Shown: one piece after another, positions 4,079 to 24,069 of the stretch | How positions within the stretch are numbered: the stretch's first letter is position 1 | Layout: each line of letters starts with the position of its first letter | Assembly (NCBI GenBank): GCA_016234495.1 | Contig: JACRBI010000009.1 | Span: 1 to 64,000, forward strand | Reading direction: 5' to 3' | Length of the DNA stretch: 64,000 bases | DNA from: Chloroflexota bacterium | Lineage (GTDB): Bacteria; Chloroflexota; Anaerolineae; Anaerolineales; Villigracilaceae | The notes under the pieces: generated by a model | The model's input: the letters and a program-made list of their open reading frames with translations, nothing else | What the model was told of the DNA's origin: nothing | The model's database searches: none | Position numbers and translations under genes: made by a program

Positions 4079-6613
4079 ATGACTGACATACATTACAACT
4101 CGAAAGAGATTGAAAGCAAGTGGCAAGCCAAATGGGACGCCGACCAGTTATACCGCTCGGTGATCGACAACAGCAAGCCGAAGCATTACGCGCTGACCAT
4201 GCTGCCTTATCCCAGCGGTGACCTGCACATCGGACACTGGTACGCGATGACTCCGTCCGACGCGCGCGCGCGTTATATGCGGATGAAAGGCTACAACGTA
4301 CTCTTCCCGATGGGCTTCGACGCATTCGGTCTGCCTGCGGAGAATGCCGCCATCAAAAGCGGAGTCCACCCGATGACCCGCACGCGCGAGAACATCGTGC
4401 GGATGCGAAAGCAGCTGCGCTCGATGGGCGCGATGTTCGACTGGGAGCGCGAAGCCGTTTCCTGCGAACCCGAATATTACAAGTGGACGGAATGGTTTTT
4501 CATTCAGTTATACAAGACCGGACTGGCCTACCGCAAAATGTCGCCGGTGGATTTTTGCCCGAACTGCAACACGACTTTGGCACGCGAACAAGTCTGGGGT
4601 GACGACCGTCACTGCGAACGCTGCGGCACGCCGGTCATCAAAAAGGATTTGGATCAGTGGTTCTTCAAGGCGACGAAATATGCCGATGAACTGTTGAACT
4701 TTGATGGCATTGACTGGCCCCAAACGGTCAAGACCTTGCAGACCAATTGGATTGACCGCAGCGAGGGGGCGGAGGTGAAATTTAAGATAGACGATGGACA
4801 GTGGACGATGGACGGTCAACGGTCAACGGTCAACGGTCAATCAATTACCATCTTCACCACCCGCCCGGATACGCTCTGGGGTGCGACCTTCATGGTCTTC
4901 TCGCCGGAACATCCGTTAGTGAGTGAAATTACCACTCCCAAAAATAAAGCGGCGGTCGAAGAATACAAAGCACAGGCCGCGCGTCAGACAGAAATTCAAC
5001 GCGGCGCAGTGGACAAGGAAAAGACAGGTGTGTTCACCGGCGGTTATGCCATCAACCCGGTCAATCAGGCGCGCATCCCGATCTGGATCGCGGATTATGT
5101 GATGATGTCCTACGGCACGGGCGCGATCATGGCTGTGCCCGCGCACGACGAGCGCGATTTTGCTTTTGCCAAAAAATATGACTTGCCCATTGTCGAAGTG
5201 ATCAGCCCCACCCCCCACCAACTCCCCCCAAATTCGGGGAATTTGGGGGGAGAGAAAGAGGGGGGTATGGAGTCCGCATACATCGGCGCGGGCGTCATGG
5301 TCAACTCCGCTCAATTCAACGGGACGAAAGTCAGCACTGAAAAAGGAAGAAAGAATCCCGGTATCGCAAAAGTTTTGGATTGGATCGCAGAGCAGGGCAT
5401 TGGAAAAGAATCGGTGAACTATCGCTACCGCGATTGGTTGATCAGTCGTCAGCGTTATTGGGGCGCGCCCATCCCGATGGTCAACTGCGAGATACACGGC
5501 TGGAATCCAGTTCCCAATGATCAACTGCCCGTGATTTTGCCTGAAGATGTGGAGTGGCGGCCAACTGGCGAAAGCCCGTTGAAACTGCACCCGACCTGGA
5601 AGAATACCACCTGCCCCGTCTGCAACGGACCTGCCACGCGCGAGACCGATACGATGGATACATTCATGTGTTCGTCGTGGTATCACTTGCGTTACCTGTC
5701 GCCAAAGTATGACAAGGGACCCTTTGACCCCGCCGAGTACGATTACTGGATGCCCGTTGACACGTATACCGGCGGCATCGAACACGCCACCATGCATTTG
5801 CTGTACACGCGCTTCTTCCACAAGGCACTGCGCGACTCGGGCATCGTGGAAGGTCACGAGCCGATGCTGCAATTGCGTAATCAGGGCATGGTGCTGGGCG
5901 AAGACGGCGACAAGATGTCGAAGAGCAAGGGCAACGTCATAGCGCCGGATGTGCTGGTGGATAAATACGGCGCAGACACTGTGCGCGCCTACATCATGTT
6001 CTTTGCGCGTTGGGAAATGGGCGCGCCGTGGGACTCGCAGGGCATTGAGGGAGCTGCGCGCTGGGTGAGGAGAGTGTGGACTTTGTTCACCGATCAAACC
6101 CCGCCCGCGGCTGCTTCTGACGAAACGAAAAAGAATCTGCGCCGAAAGGTTCACCAGACCCTGCGCAAAGTGACGCGTGACTTCGACAACTTTGAATTCA
6201 ACACCATCATCTCATCGCTGATGGAATTGATGAACGAAATGTACAAGGCGCGTGAAGCAGGCGCGGCTGGCACTGACGAGTGGAAGGAAGCCCAGGAAAT
6301 CTACCTGAAGATGATGGCGCCTGTCACGCCGCATGTGGCGGAAGAATTGTGGGCATACCTGGGCAGGCCGTATTCTGTCCATACGCAGCAATGGCCGCAA
6401 GTGGACGAAGCAGCAGCGAAGGAAGATGTCATCGAATTGCCGGTACAGGTCAATGGTAAGGTGCGTGACCGCATCTCTGTCCCCGCTGAGGCAGGCGAAG
6501 AGGAGATCAAGTCTGCGGCGCTGGCGAGCGAGGCAATCCAGAAGTTTTTGGAAGGCAAAGAGCCAAAGAAGGTGATCGTGGCCAAGGGGCGGCTGGTCAG
6601 CATTGTGATCTAG
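4079..6613 (+). CDS. leuS: Leucyl-tRNA synthetase
   Basis: LeuRS charges tRNA-Leu in the cytoplasm. The 844-residue class-I synthetase has the HIGH motif at H50-H53, the KMSKS motif at 612-616, a zinc-ribbon pair CPNC/CERC in the ZN-1 region and the editing-domain sequence TTRPDTLWGA. It belongs to the T-box transcription unit. Two stretches look like inserted repeats read in frame: residues about 239-258 (nt 4793-4850) and about 377-398 (nt 5204-5272). They lie in loops between conserved blocks, and all catalytic and editing motifs are intact, so the protein should still work. ATG 4079 has GAGGA upstream. Confidence 0.97.
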   Translation: MTDIHYNSKEIESKWQAKWDADQLYRSVIDNSKPKHYALTMLPYPSGDLHIGHWYAMTPSDARARYMRMKGYNVLFPMGFDAFGLPAENAAIKSGVHPMTRTRENIVRMRKQLRSMGAMFDWEREAVSCEPEYYKWTEWFFIQLYKTGLAYRKMSPVDFCPNCNTTLAREQVWGDDRHCERCGTPVIKKDLDQWFFKATKYADELLNFDGIDWPQTVKTLQTNWIDRSEGAEVKFKIDDGQWTMDGQRSTVNGQSITIFTTRPDTLWGATFMVFSPEHPLVSEITTPKNKAAVEEYKAQAARQTEIQRGAVDKEKTGVFTGGYAINPVNQARIPIWIADYVMMSYGTGAIMAVPAHDERDFAFAKKYDLPIVEVISPTPHQLPPNSGNLGGEKEGGMESAYIGAGVMVNSAQFNGTKVSTEKGRKNPGIAKVLDWIAEQGIGKESVNYRYRDWLISRQRYWGAPIPMVNCEIHGWNPVPNDQLPVILPEDVEWRPTGESPLKLHPTWKNTTCPVCNGPATRETDTMDTFMCSSWYHLRYLSPKYDKGPFDPAEYDYWMPVDTYTGGIEHATMHLLYTRFFHKALRDSGIVEGHEPMLQLRNQGMVLGEDGDKMSKSKGNVIAPDVLVDKYGADTVRAYIMFFARWEMGAPWDSQGIEGAARWVRRVWTLFTDQTPPAAASDETKKNLRRKVHQTLRKVTRDFDNFEFNTIISSLMELMNEMYKAREAGAAGTDEWKEAQEIYLKMMAPVTPHVAEELWAYLGRPYSVHTQQWPQVDEAAAKEDVIELPVQVNGKVRDRISVPAEAGEEEIKSAALASEAIQKFLEGKEPKKVIVAKGRLVSIVI
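4793..4850 (+). repeat. GACGATGG/GGTCAA repeat inside leuS
   Basis: TAGACGATGGACAGTGGACG followed by four GGTCAAC units matches the intergenic copy at 1262-1325 with few changes. The unit is 7 bases, and the insert keeps the reading frame, encoding Asp/Gly/Gln/Thr-rich residues just before the conserved editing-domain strand TIFTTRPDT. Confidence 0.8.
5204..5272 (+). repeat. C-rich/G-rich palindromic element inside leuS
   Basis: The arms CTCCCCCCAAATTC (5222-5235) and GAATTTGGGGGGAG (5239-5252) are a perfect 14-bp inverted repeat with a GGG loop, nested inside ACCCCCC/GGGGGGT outer arms. It is read through in frame as a Pro/Gly/Asn-rich loop. It looks like a small mobile palindrome of the kind normally found between genes. 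Confidence 0.75.
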
Positions 6614-14136: not shown

Positions 14137-14649
14137 ATGAACTTTCGCCGTTATTATATCCCCGGGTCGGCGGTATTTATTACGCAAGTGGTTGAAGGTC
14201 GTGAACCTGTTTTTCACAAATCAGAGAACGTGATCTTGTTGCGCGAAACCCTGCACAATGTAAAGGAACTCCATCCATTTTCCATGTTGGGATATGTCTT
14301 TTTGCCTGAACATCTCCATGTGTTAATTCAACCAACGGGTGAGGAAAATTTTAGCGATATTATGCATTCCCTAAAAATGAACTTTACAAGAGAATTCAAG
14401 AAGAAACTCGGGCTTGAACAATCCCAGTCCATGAAATTCTGGCAGAAGCGATTTTGGGATCATGTCATTCGGGATGACAAAGACCTTGAGAATCACCTGC
14501 ATTACATGCACTATAACCCTGTAAAACATGGATATACAAAAGACCCGCGTGACTGGCAGGATAGCAGTTATATGGAATGGGAAAAGCGGGGATTGTATCC
14601 GCCTGCTTTTGGCTGGGATGAGCCGAAAAATATTGAGTGGGGTGAGTAG
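14137..14649 (+). CDS. REP-associated tyrosine transposase (RAYT, Y1/HUH family)
   Basis: The 170-residue protein is a single-strand-specific transposase of the IS200-like Y1 family. The metal-binding HUH motif is HLH (H59-L60-H61 in PEHLHVLI), the catalytic tyrosine is in HYMHYNPVKHG (Y123, less likely Y126), and the domain opens with RRYYIPGSAVFITQVV. It would nick and join DNA through a phosphotyrosine link at REP hairpins. ATG 14137 follows TATAAT by six bases, so the message is probably leaderless. REP pairs lie on both sides (14046-14112 and 14653-14717), exactly the arrangement expected for a REP-RAYT unit. Confidence 0.93.
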   Translation: MNFRRYYIPGSAVFITQVVEGREPVFHKSENVILLRETLHNVKELHPFSMLGYVFLPEHLHVLIQPTGEENFSDIMHSLKMNFTREFKKKLGLEQSQSMKFWQKRFWDHVIRDDKDLENHLHYMHYNPVKHGYTKDPRDWQDSSYMEWEKRGLYPPAFGWDEPKNIEWGE

Positions 14650-20865: not shown

Positions 20866-21990
20866 TTAATTATTTACAAGCTCCTGAATTATTTTCTCTG
20901 CTGCGTGTCCATCTCCATACGGATTGGCTGCCTTTGCCATTTGTTCATAAGCGGATGGATCTTCCAAAAGCCGCGTCGCTTCTTTGACGATGTTGCTGGT
21001 TTCTGTTCCGACGAGTTTGAGCGTCCCTGCGGCCACTCCCTCCGGGCGTTCGGTCACATCCCGCAGAACAAGGGTGGGGATGCCGAAAGCAGGCGCTTCC
21101 TCCTGAATGCCGCCTGAGTCGGTCAGGATGAGCGATGCGTGTTTCATCAAATGTACCAGCGGCAGATAGTCCAGCGGAGGGAGCAGGGTGATATGCTCCG
21201 CGCCTTTGAGCAATCTGTTGACAGGCTTCTGCACATTTGGATTCAAATGGACAGGATAAACGATCTCCACATCTCCGCGGCTTGCCAGCTCACGCAGAGA
21301 ATGGCAGACCCCTTCCATCGGCTCCCCAAAATTTTCACGCCTGTGGGCAGTGACGAGAATCAATCTTCGATTTTCGATTTCCGATTTTCTATTTCCGATT
21401 CTCAACTTCCCAATTAATTCACTCACATCCGACGGTTCGTTTTGCTTTGAAACAAACTGCAGCGCGTCTATGACCGTGTTGCCGGTAACTTTGATCGTGC
21501 TTTCATCAATTCCTTCGCGCAGCAGGTTTTGCCTTGACCAGTCAGTCGGCGCGAAGTGCAGGTCGGCTGTCACACCAGCCACGCGCCGATTGATCTCCTC
21601 GGGAAAAGGCGCCCACTTATCGTGGGTGCGGAGTCCCGCTTCCACGTGCCCGAATTTGATGCGATGGTAATAAGCCAGCAAGGAAGTGATCGCGACCGTG
21701 GTTGTGTCGCCTTGCGCCAGCACCCAATCTGGTTTGAAATCTGCCAAGACAGGGTCGAGGTTCGTAAAGATGGCCGCGCTTAATTGTGAAAGGGATTGAT
21801 TCTCGCGCATCAAGTCAAGGTCATATTCTGTTTTGATCTCAAACAGATTCAGCACCTGATCGAGCATTTGACGATGCTGCGCCGTGACGCAGACCCGCGA
21901 TTCAATGCCCGCGGTCGCTTTCAACAAACGGACAATGGGGGCCATTTTCACGGCTTCCGGTCTTGTGCCAAATACAGAGAGGATTCTCAA
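20866..21990 (-). CDS. wecB: UDP-N-acetylglucosamine 2-epimerase (non-hydrolysing)
   Basis: This enzyme interconverts UDP-GlcNAc and UDP-ManNAc for surface polysaccharide synthesis. The 374-residue protein has the family N-terminus FGTRPEAVKMAPIV, VQGDTTT-like AQGDTTTVA, HVEAGLRT, VTGNTVID, TAHRRENFGEP and DSGGIQEEAP. It starts with TTG at 21990; GGAAG eight bases upstream comes from the junction repeat. Residues about 194-210 (KLRIGNRKSEIENRRL) come from a GAAAATCG-type repeat read in frame. It forms a pair with the dehydrogenase upstream. Confidence 0.94.
   Translation of the reverse strand: MRILSVFGTRPEAVKMAPIVRLLKATAGIESRVCVTAQHRQMLDQVLNLFEIKTEYDLDLMRENQSLSQLSAAIFTNLDPVLADFKPDWVLAQGDTTTVAITSLLAYYHRIKFGHVEAGLRTHDKWAPFPEEINRRVAGVTADLHFAPTDWSRQNLLREGIDESTIKVTGNTVIDALQFVSKQNEPSDVSELIGKLRIGNRKSEIENRRLILVTAHRRENFGEPMEGVCHSLRELASRGDVEIVYPVHLNPNVQKPVNRLLKGAEHITLLPPLDYLPLVHLMKHASLILTDSGGIQEEAPAFGIPTLVLRDVTERPEGVAAGTLKLVGTETSNIVKEATRLLEDPSAYEQMAKAANPYGDGHAAEKIIQELVNN
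21355..21418 (-). repeat. GAAAATCG-type periodic repeat inside wecB
   Basis: On the minus strand the sequence is a run of degenerate AATCGGAAATAGAAAATCGG units. The same family occurs 0.6 kb away at 21992-22036 at the gene junction. It keeps the frame of wecB and lies just before the conserved TAHRREN block. Confidence 0.7.
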
Positions 21991-21991
21991 G

Positions 21992-22036
21992 TTGTAACTT
22001 CCGATTTACGATTTTGGATTTACGATTTGCGATTTG
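21992..22036 (-). repeat. CAAATCGTAAATC repeat at the wecC/wecB junction
   Basis: The repeat CAAATCGCAAATCGTAAATC and further units encodes the last residues of the dehydrogenase (NKSQIVNPKS), contains its TAA stop, and supplies the GGAAG site used by the downstream epimerase. Confidence 0.7.
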
Positions 22037-23334
22037 TTGCTGCCGAGACGGAATACTTTAAAGCCGGCGCTTTTCCATGCTTTGTCATTCAAGCCATTTA
22101 CGGTGTCAATAACGATGCGGGCTTTGGTTTTATTTGCGATTTCAGAGGGAACCAGATTTGAAAATTCCGTGTGCTTCACCATTAACACAATTGCATCGGC
22201 TTCTGATAACGCATTTTCCAGAGAGGGTGCCATGTCAATGCCCGGCATGACTGCGTCAGGCTTAAACGGCTCCCACGCCTTCACCTGCGCGCCTTCGTGT
22301 TGAAGCAGATGCACAACCTCATTCGCCGGGCTTTCACGCAGATCATCTACATCCGGTTTATAAGCCAGACCAAGCGCGGCGACTTTTTTTCCGTTGAGCG
22401 AGCCAAGCGCGCGCTTGACGATATCCACAACAAAATGAGGTTGGGCATCATTGACCTGACGCGCGTGATAAATGAGCGGCGTGATTTCAGGCGCGGCTTC
22501 CACGAAGAACCACGGGTCCACGCTGATGCAATGTCCGCCGACGCCGGGGCCGGGACTGAGGATTTTTACACGCGGGTGCAGGTTTGCAATCGAAATGGCT
22601 TCCCAGACATCCACACCGAATTTATCCGCCAAGCGCGAGAATTCATTAGCGATGGCAATATTCACGTCGCGGTAGGTATTCTCCATCAGCTTGACCATTT
22701 CTGCGGTGGTTGCGTCGGTCTGGATGATCTGACCTTTGACGAATGTGGCGTAAAGGTCCCTGCCTGCCTGCGCAGACTCCGGCGTTACGCCGCCGATGAC
22801 GCGCGCGTTTTCGATCAACTCGCGCAAAATTTGTCCCGGCAAAACTCTTTCGGGTGAATAAGCCAAATGGAAGTCGCGCCCAGCCACAAGTCCAGAATGA
22901 GCGAGGATGGGAGCGACAAGATCAACGGTCGTGCGCGGAGGAGAAGTCGATTCGAGCACGACCAGATTCCCCTTCCTCAAAAATGGCACGATGGATTCGG
23001 CGGCGGATGTCACTGCGCGCATATCCGCAAGCTTGTAGGTCACGCCGCTGTATTCGCCGAATTTATTTTCCTGAAAAGGCGTTGGCACGGCAATGATGAA
23101 TGCATCGGCCTCTTCTGGTTTGGTCGCGGCTTTGAAGTTCCCCGATCGAATCGCTTTCTGCACTTCTTCGAGCAGGCCGGGTTCGTGGATGTGAATCTCG
23201 CCTTGGTTGATGGTGTCAATGATGCGCGGGCTGATGTCCACGCCGAGGACGTTGATTCCGCGCGCGGCAAATGTGGATGCGGTGGGGAGGCCGATATAGC
23301 CGAGGCCGATGACACAAATTTTTTGAAAGTTCAC
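22006..23334 (-). CDS. wecC: UDP-N-acetyl-D-mannosamine dehydrogenase (nucleotide-sugar dehydrogenase)
   Basis: This enzyme oxidises UDP-ManNAc twice with NAD+ to UDP-ManNAcA. The 442-residue protein has the Rossmann start ICVIGLGYIGLPTASTFA, the catalytic cysteine in GGHCISVDPWFF, and the C-terminal domain LGLAYKPDVDDLRESPA. The neighbouring 2-epimerase supplies its substrate, so the pair makes ManNAcA for an envelope glycan; membership in UDP-ManNAc rather than UDP-Glc dehydrogenases is inferred from this pairing and the motifs. AGGAG precedes the start. A TATAAT box near 23375 on the minus strand is back to back with the NfeD promoter. The last ten residues are repeat-derived. Confidence 0.92.
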   Translation of the reverse strand: MNFQKICVIGLGYIGLPTASTFAARGINVLGVDISPRIIDTINQGEIHIHEPGLLEEVQKAIRSGNFKAATKPEEADAFIIAVPTPFQENKFGEYSGVTYKLADMRAVTSAAESIVPFLRKGNLVVLESTSPPRTTVDLVAPILAHSGLVAGRDFHLAYSPERVLPGQILRELIENARVIGGVTPESAQAGRDLYATFVKGQIIQTDATTAEMVKLMENTYRDVNIAIANEFSRLADKFGVDVWEAISIANLHPRVKILSPGPGVGGHCISVDPWFFVEAAPEITPLIYHARQVNDAQPHFVVDIVKRALGSLNGKKVAALGLAYKPDVDDLRESPANEVVHLLQHEGAQVKAWEPFKPDAVMPGIDMAPSLENALSEADAIVLMVKHTEFSNLVPSEIANKTKARIVIDTVNGLNDKAWKSAGFKVFRLGSNKSQIVNPKS

Positions 23335-23475: not shown

Positions 23476-24069
23476 ATGGACATTCTATTGGAACCGAACA
23501 TTGCGTATCTGATTTTGCTGGGCGGTATATTCCTTGGATTGATGGCGATCGTTTCACCCGGGACAGGTGTCTTTGAAGTGGGAGCCTTATTCTGCCTTGC
23601 GCTGGCAGGATATGCAGTTTACAACATGTCTTTCAATTGGTGGGCGATCGTTTTACTTGCGTTGAGCATCGTGCCTTTCATCTATTCCATTCAAAAACCC
23701 AAACGGGAACTGTACCTCGGGATTTCGATTTTATTACTCGTTGCCGGCTCGGTTTTCCTGTTTGCTGTGGATGGCTGGAAGCCCGCAGTTGACCCGCTCG
23801 TTTCACTGGCCGCATCGGGATTGGTGGCCGCGTTTTTATGGATCGCTGTGCGAAAAACTGTCCAGGCTGCAGGTGCGCGCCCAGTGCATGACCTTGAAGC
23901 GCTGGCAGGCTTGCTTGGCGAAGCCAGGTCACGAATTCATCAGGACGGAAGTGTGTATGTGGCAGGGGAACTGTGGTCAGCCAGAAGCGATAAGGCAATT
24001 CCCGCAGGCAGTCCCATTCGTGTGGTTCGCCGCGAGGGTTTTATCCTCGTTGTTGAAAAAGTCGGTTAG
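23476..24069 (+). CDS. NfeD-like membrane protein
   Basis: The 197-residue protein has four or five membrane helices (YLILLGGIFLGLMAIVSPG opens the first) and a C-terminal OB-fold domain (LLGEARSRIHQDGSVYVAGELWSA... IPAGSPIRVVRREGFILVV), the short NfeD architecture. NfeD proteins usually work with a stomatin/slipin, which is encoded 30 bases downstream here. GGAGG precedes the ATG; TATAAT lies at 23455-23460. Confidence 0.88.
   Translation: MDILLEPNIAYLILLGGIFLGLMAIVSPGTGVFEVGALFCLALAGYAVYNMSFNWWAIVLLALSIVPFIYSIQKPKRELYLGISILLLVAGSVFLFAVDGWKPAVDPLVSLAASGLVAAFLWIAVRKTVQAAGARPVHDLEALAGLLGEARSRIHQDGSVYVAGELWSARSDKAIPAGSPIRVVRREGFILVVEKVG

Follow-up and report, generated by a model that had tools for sequence, protein, structure and literature searches.

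The window, i.e. the whole stretch of 64,000 nucleotides analysed here, lies on contig C49 of a Chloroflexota genome of 4.10 Mb in 57 contigs. Two palindromic elements lie in frame in its leuS gene, and a second element of the first kind sits between leuB and ilvE. The features concerned are as follows (window coordinates):

155–176, + strand: tract of AATTACC-type heptads upstream of leuB, representing another heptad family of this genome
1258–1320, + strand: second GAC-heptad palindromic element, in the leuB-ilvE spacer (core 1260–1318)
4079–6613, + strand: leuS, leucyl-tRNA synthetase, 844 aa, reading frame open through both inserts
4787–4843, + strand: GAC-heptad palindromic element in leuS, in frame, residues about 237–254 = IDDGQWTMDGQRSTVNGQ
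about 5206–5265, + strand: unrelated palindromic element in leuS, in frame, residues about 376–396
21353–22041, + strand: two CGATTTT-type heptad tracts (21353–21408 and 21992–22041)

The sequence TAGACGATGGACMGTGGACG occurs without mismatch at 1265–1284 and 4788–4807 and in none of 100 dinucleotide-shuffled windows, which bears out the claim of a first-pass annotation that the leuB-ilvE spacer and leuS have a repeat in common. Its coordinates needed small shifts, in leuS from 4793–4850 to about 4787–4843 (residues about 239–258 becoming about 237–254) and in the spacer from 1262–1325 to a core of 1260–1318. In the leuS element the GAC..GTC core spans 4790–4838; the left arm is TAGACGATGGACAGTGGACGATGGAC and the right arm is four units of GGTCAAC, the sole clean tandem repeat within the element (Tandem Repeats Finder row 4812–4840). 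The spacer element covers the final leuB codons, and its TAG is the leuB stop codon. The 7-base period is characteristic of this genome: 10 of the 22 Tandem Repeats Finder rows in the window have period 7, and in 857 kb of the genome there are 23 tracts at lag 7 and 14 at lag 14, with 0–1 at each of lags 5, 6, 8, 9, 10, 11 and 13. Between leuB and leuS, the spacer of two tandem tRNA genes (2432–2504 and 2587–2659) is made of inverted AGTAATC-type heptads. It is followed by a T-box-like leader (2666–2979; 55.9 bits, short of the gathering score, 93), in which 76 nt stand at a point for which the model has 3; this stretch is rich in AGTC/GGTC, and about 69 nt of it are absent from the congener G044.

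When aligned with the leuS product (E 1.8e-238), the solved structure 1h3n of T. thermophilus shows gaps at both inserts. The first occupies the hairpin with which the CP1 editing domain begins, just before TTRPDT, as the first-pass annotation had placed it; the second occupies another loop within the same CP1 editing region. In an AlphaFold model built from 30 sequences (mean pLDDT 84.4), confidence falls below 50 at residues 242–247 and 383–395, and both inserts are predicted as low-confidence loops. Inspection by eye of LeuRS from 80 relatives revealed a mostly short loop (K-TE-xGD), with other long inserts at this position in seven; the GAC-heptad insert is in none of 29 congener LeuRS. 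Neither outcome that the first-pass annotation had named as refuting came about: the same insert did not turn up in the other LeuRS compared, and other copies do exist in the genome. The second palindrome of leuS, which had escaped the first-pass annotation, has the core CTCCCCCCAAATT-CGGGG-AATTTGGGGGG and can also be read as CCCCCCAAATT..AATTTGGGGGG. A regular expression finds it at 5 places in 857 kb; other copies lie on contigs C22 and C30.

Allowing up to three mismatches, TAGACGATGGACMGTGGACG matches the genome 86 times (46 forward, 40 reverse) versus twice for the reversed pattern. These matches group into 69 clusters, of which 53 are two-armed imperfect palindromes: GAC recurs every 7 bases, a gap of 1–25 nt follows, and then GTC recurs every 7 bases, the GAC..GTC span being 38–74 nt. 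The same parser detects no second arm in the remaining 16. Four heptads are found in 37 of the 53 left arms and 40 of the 53 right arms. Since the arms are inverted, GAC-heptads being followed by GTC-heptads, the result is a palindrome with heptads as its units. A heptad starts with GAC; G or C (0.49/0.36), A or G, T (0.88) and mostly G or A follow. Position 4 is the same between paired arms in only 0.18–0.20 of cases versus 0.36 for swapped arms (z about -5; 188 heptad pairs, 50 elements), and because it disagrees between paired heptads, the palindrome carries a regular mismatch. Selection for a perfect hairpin therefore failed as an explanation: owing to position 4, an element's own arms are less complementary (0.44) than swapped arms (0.49). 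When four elements were folded as DNA, two were better than all 200 of their shuffles (z -3.67 and -3.85) and two were not (20/200 and 48/200 as good). The leuB-ilvE spacer copy belongs to the former (-12.1 kcal/mol, z -3.67, 0/200 shuffles as good), whereas the fold of the leuS copy is no better than its own shuffles (z -0.70, 48/200 as good). By eye, CGTC appears within the right arm of many copies, but it belongs to each heptad and is not one terminal tag.

What the GAC-heptad copies have in common is a rule and not the letters themselves. In a set of 84 arms with three or more linkers, no pair is identical across all 12 linker letters, and identities to the nearest neighbour equal those of random heptad draws. 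Adjacent heptads within an arm are not more alike than chance either (15 of 178 identical, 11.6 expected). As the linkers match no better than random draws, the copies show no sign of descent from one another; either the linkers are saturated while the core has been kept, or the copies were not made by copying.

Counts of the GAC-heptad motif in 41 genomes range within the genus from 0–1 (G022, G007) to 110 (G019) and 123 (G016), and G030, from another family of the same order, has 151 matches. The pattern is not clean everywhere, because some reversed controls are also high (46 vs 29 in G005, 30 vs 1 in G026 and 26 vs 21 in G040). In 301 genomes of the phylum, a clear excess is seen only in the own family and in some parts of the order; genomes from elsewhere have at most 6 matches, and most of the phylum is at background level. 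Reversed controls reach 36–41 in G086, G311 and G208, so other repeats are present there. In G016, a genome of 2 contigs and 78% completeness, leuS and acnA are split over frames, probably through assembly error.

GAC-heptad copies lie mostly outside genes. An automatic test, which called a copy in-gene if the frame was open across the element and the coding score exceeded 5 on both flanks, flagged 19 of the 69 clusters; two of these calls, which lacked a right arm (C30:30581 and C43:3703), were removed by eye as chance. The remaining 17 clusters are in frame inside 15 ORFs, including leuS, acnA, aroA, pheT, queA, prmA and recJ. Of eight proteins tested with the insert in place, PheT, QueA, AroA, PrmA, RecJ and AcnA passed the NCBIfam cut-offs, and a FAD-binding subunit and a dihydrolipoamide acyltransferase matched below them. 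Other host ORFs were named by eye (molybdopterin oxidoreductase, membrane proteins, ABC transporter, NADH dehydrogenase fusion). Of 12 left arms, nine have their first GAC in codon phase 0, three in phase 2 and none in phase 1.

Congeners carry other repeat families at both leuS sites, which goes beyond the first-pass annotation. We read the leuS, acnA and prmA sites in the best 30 loci each (the genus comprises 57 genomes). At leuS site 1, reading by eye of the best 30 of the 57 genomes gave one GAC-heptad element, that of the window, seven AGTAATC-type, one GGAATTA-type and three GGGAATC-like elements, two other sequences and 16 without any. Site 2 holds, in frame, GTAG-type palindromes, a CCCTCTCCC-type palindrome or CCCTTCGACAGGCTCAGGG, and some congeners have no insert there. 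The 30 acnA loci comprise five with GAC-heptads, five with AACGTT-heptads and 20 with nothing. The prmA linker (30 loci read out of 55 matching genomes) contains a recognisable element in most loci, from many families, GTAG-type palindromes among them. All 30 are open in one frame across both flanks; the multiple-of-three lengths are no separate result, because the search pattern required an open frame. The queA site was readable in 11 of 30 loci. Lag-7 self-match exceeds that of codon shuffles at prmA (0.497 vs 0.254, sd 0.011; other lags from 4 to 13 at 0.20–0.29), at acnA (0.585 vs 0.253; 10 loci of at least 36 nt) and at leuS site 1 (0.354 vs 0.239). Leucyl-tRNA synthetase site 2 shows no such excess (0.256 vs 0.246), as expected, since its palindromes are non-heptad. 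In prmA of G042 (L272) a CCCTTCGG..CTCAGGG palindrome is nested inside a GAGGAAA-type element, and a second small palindrome also lies within or beside a heptad element in queA of G053 (L313) and acnA of G068 (L235). This suggests that elements insert into elements.

With states assigned by eye, a quick 38-species tree requires no fewer than 15 family changes at prmA (24 species), 10 at acnA and 11 at leuS site 1 (30 species each), counts that may be inflated by the weak support of 14 of the 35 inner branches. Automatic clustering of prmA (49 rows, 30 species) yielded 7–11 sequence clusters depending on linkage and 10, 16 and 17 changes for single, average and complete linkage, at cut-offs set by the analyst; three linkages are reported because the single one fused visibly different families. 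The well-supported sisters G051 and G071 are unlike at prmA, acnA and leuS site 1 alike. Inside essential genes, repeat families thus seem to displace each other time and again.

Close genome pairs and transposase loci were inspected for traces of movement. Elements are largely stable between close pairs, and no gain or loss of GAC-heptads was caught in G020/G060 or G008/G062. The aligned blocks of the first pair (190.7 kb, 96.5–97.8%) contain three indels of at least 15 nt, none of them a clean heptad gain or loss; at one, near 23,708, a REP-like stretch stands opposite a CTTTCCT-like stretch. The second pair (56.2 kb, 92.4%) has 11 indels of at least 14 nt, one of which is a GTAG-type palindrome, and a REP-like 44-nt palindrome present in G008 is missing from G062 (92% identical). 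Near 9560 in L339, and at the corresponding place in L343, these 92%-identical genomes have a GGATGA-type stretch in one and AGTAACC-type sequence in the other. A clean empty site with target-site duplication was not found, and a duplication is unreadable because filled and empty genes do not have the same loop flanks. We also sought a RAYT origin of the GAC family and did not find it, as no GAC-heptad copy lies within 1.5 kb of any of the six Y1 transposase loci of this genome. One of these, the RAYT-like gene at 14188–14508, has GTAGGTCACGTCTGTGACGTGAC palindromes on both sides (about 14046 and 14653), with which it likely forms a REP-carrying unit.

Taken together, it is reasonable to propose that the leuS insert is probably one copy of a REP/RPE-like family of imperfect GAC/GTC-heptad palindromes of about 55–75 bp, whose in-frame members are survivors in permissive loops and whose families turn over. 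Small palindromes would enter many places in the genome. In-gene copies may survive only if they are of a length that preserves the frame, if none of their heptads creates a stop codon in that frame and if the encoded peptide comes to lie in a permissive surface loop. Later, the resident element could be lost, or another family could insert into or beside it, so that the same loop would hold different families in different species.

A different view, which we regard as unlikely, is that the elements are not decaying inserts but functional DNA or RNA sites under selection, e.g. protein-bound or transcribed imperfect hairpins, and that the nucleic acid matters inside genes too. Orthologous in-gene copies of equal length (14 pairs, from prmA, acnA and queA) differ at 30 of 390 positions in the GAC/GTC core versus 168 of 516 in the rest, and four-fold sites of the same genes differ by 32–55%; these pairs overlap and were chosen by eye as GAC-type, so that copies without the core would be missed. 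The core also occupies all three codon phases in turn, and the position-4 mismatch would be a shared structural rule. Against this, the motif is at background level across most of the phylum. Sister species, moreover, carry unrelated families at the same site, so that a fixed function of that site is not needed.

Rather unlikely, too, is a scenario in which no master sequence exists: some process would write a hairpin with a 7-base rule (e.g. GAC-N-R-T-D, the arms being mirrored and one mismatch recurring in each seven bases) at permissive sites and later overwrite it according to another rule. If this were true, a given codon position in essential genes would pass from one unrelated 7-base palindrome to the next.

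Exchange of gene segments between species, with each family entering each loop once and recombination spreading the alleles, appears quite improbable as the whole explanation. The leuS alleles with heptads tend to have EGAEV and empty ones EGASV, and this association means that such exchange may explain part of the pattern; the stability of elements between close pairs would fit as well. However, many donor alleles at several genes would be needed, prmA alone having its 7–11 clusters. Local tandem slippage of resident sequence is very improbable as the origin of the leuS insert. The unvaried GGTCAAC units indicate that recent slippage acted on this copy, but the inverted arms, the same motif and two-arm layout in dispersed clusters and the chance-level identity of neighbouring heptads led us to reject pure slippage. 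Finally, an ancestral LeuRS loop is hardly conceivable and was rejected, as the loop is short in most relatives and in 1h3n, and the seven long stretches that might speak for it are other repeat families at the DNA level.

With the turnover of in-frame palindromes as the preferred reading, about 57 genomes of one genus allow a single codon position to be followed as unrelated repeat families succeed one another. The spread of such tiny repeats, and the way in which essential proteins tolerate or use the encoded peptides, thereby become testable. The LeuRS, PrmA and AcnA loops considered here are repeat-derived, which calls for caution in annotation, phylogenetic alignments and structure work.

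Several known systems invite comparison. Cyanobacterial STRR are seven-base-unit repeats akin to heptameric repeats. The GAC element resembles such simple tandem heptamers in its dispersed 7-base periodicity, but its arms are inverted and it does not consist of near-identical 7-mers head to tail. MITEs and small dispersed repeats of Nostoc are said, by Elhai and co-workers in 2008, to be very small, dispersed and sometimes nested in heptamer tracts. The GAC arms are inverted, and neither a terminal repeat with duplication nor shared sequence by descent was seen. Among the titles and openings of the matches listed in a literature search, with subscription journals mostly outside its scope, none dealt with in-frame heptad palindromes in Chloroflexota or with same-site exchange of repeat families.

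Passages of PMC4692102 describe the heptameric repeats GGGAATC of Xanthomonas and GGGGA(C/T)T of Nostoc as near-constant units, preferably four, mostly intergenic and under-represented in coding regions; the Xanthomonas repeats form convergent pairs in 70 and 75 cases. The GAC family shares the 7-base unit, the preference for four units and the mostly intergenic location, but its heptads vary at 3–4 of 7 positions, two arms are the rule and copies are in frame in core enzymes. GTAG/CGTC REPs, according to passages of PMC3733652, are short palindromes that lie close to ORFs or in them, in some cases in genes whose function is known; the TAG can serve as stop codon of the upstream ORF, and the GTAG type is reported in Chloroflexi. 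Likewise, the TAG of the leuB-ilvE spacer copy ends leuB, and GTAG-type palindromes occur at leuS site 2 and prmA of congeners. The GAC-heptad element differs in not adjoining a RAYT-like gene and appears to have no single GTAG/CGTC-tagged stem.

Rickettsia palindromic elements (RPEs) are portrayed in sections of PMC2229807 and PMC3733652 as palindromes that are scattered between genes and also occur, in frame, within conserved protein genes, with sequence families of 105–146 bp. The resemblance to RPEs drawn in the first-pass annotation stands, since the GAC element is likewise palindromic and found both between genes and in frame, while the contrast with a tandem-type sequence does not. It differs in its smaller size, its GAC/GTC heptad rule, the lack of a common long sequence among copies and the fact that relatives swap repeat families at one site. 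The best-known examples of palindromes in frame within conserved genes come from Rickettsia; the present case is a free-living Chloroflexota genus, with examples in many core enzymes.
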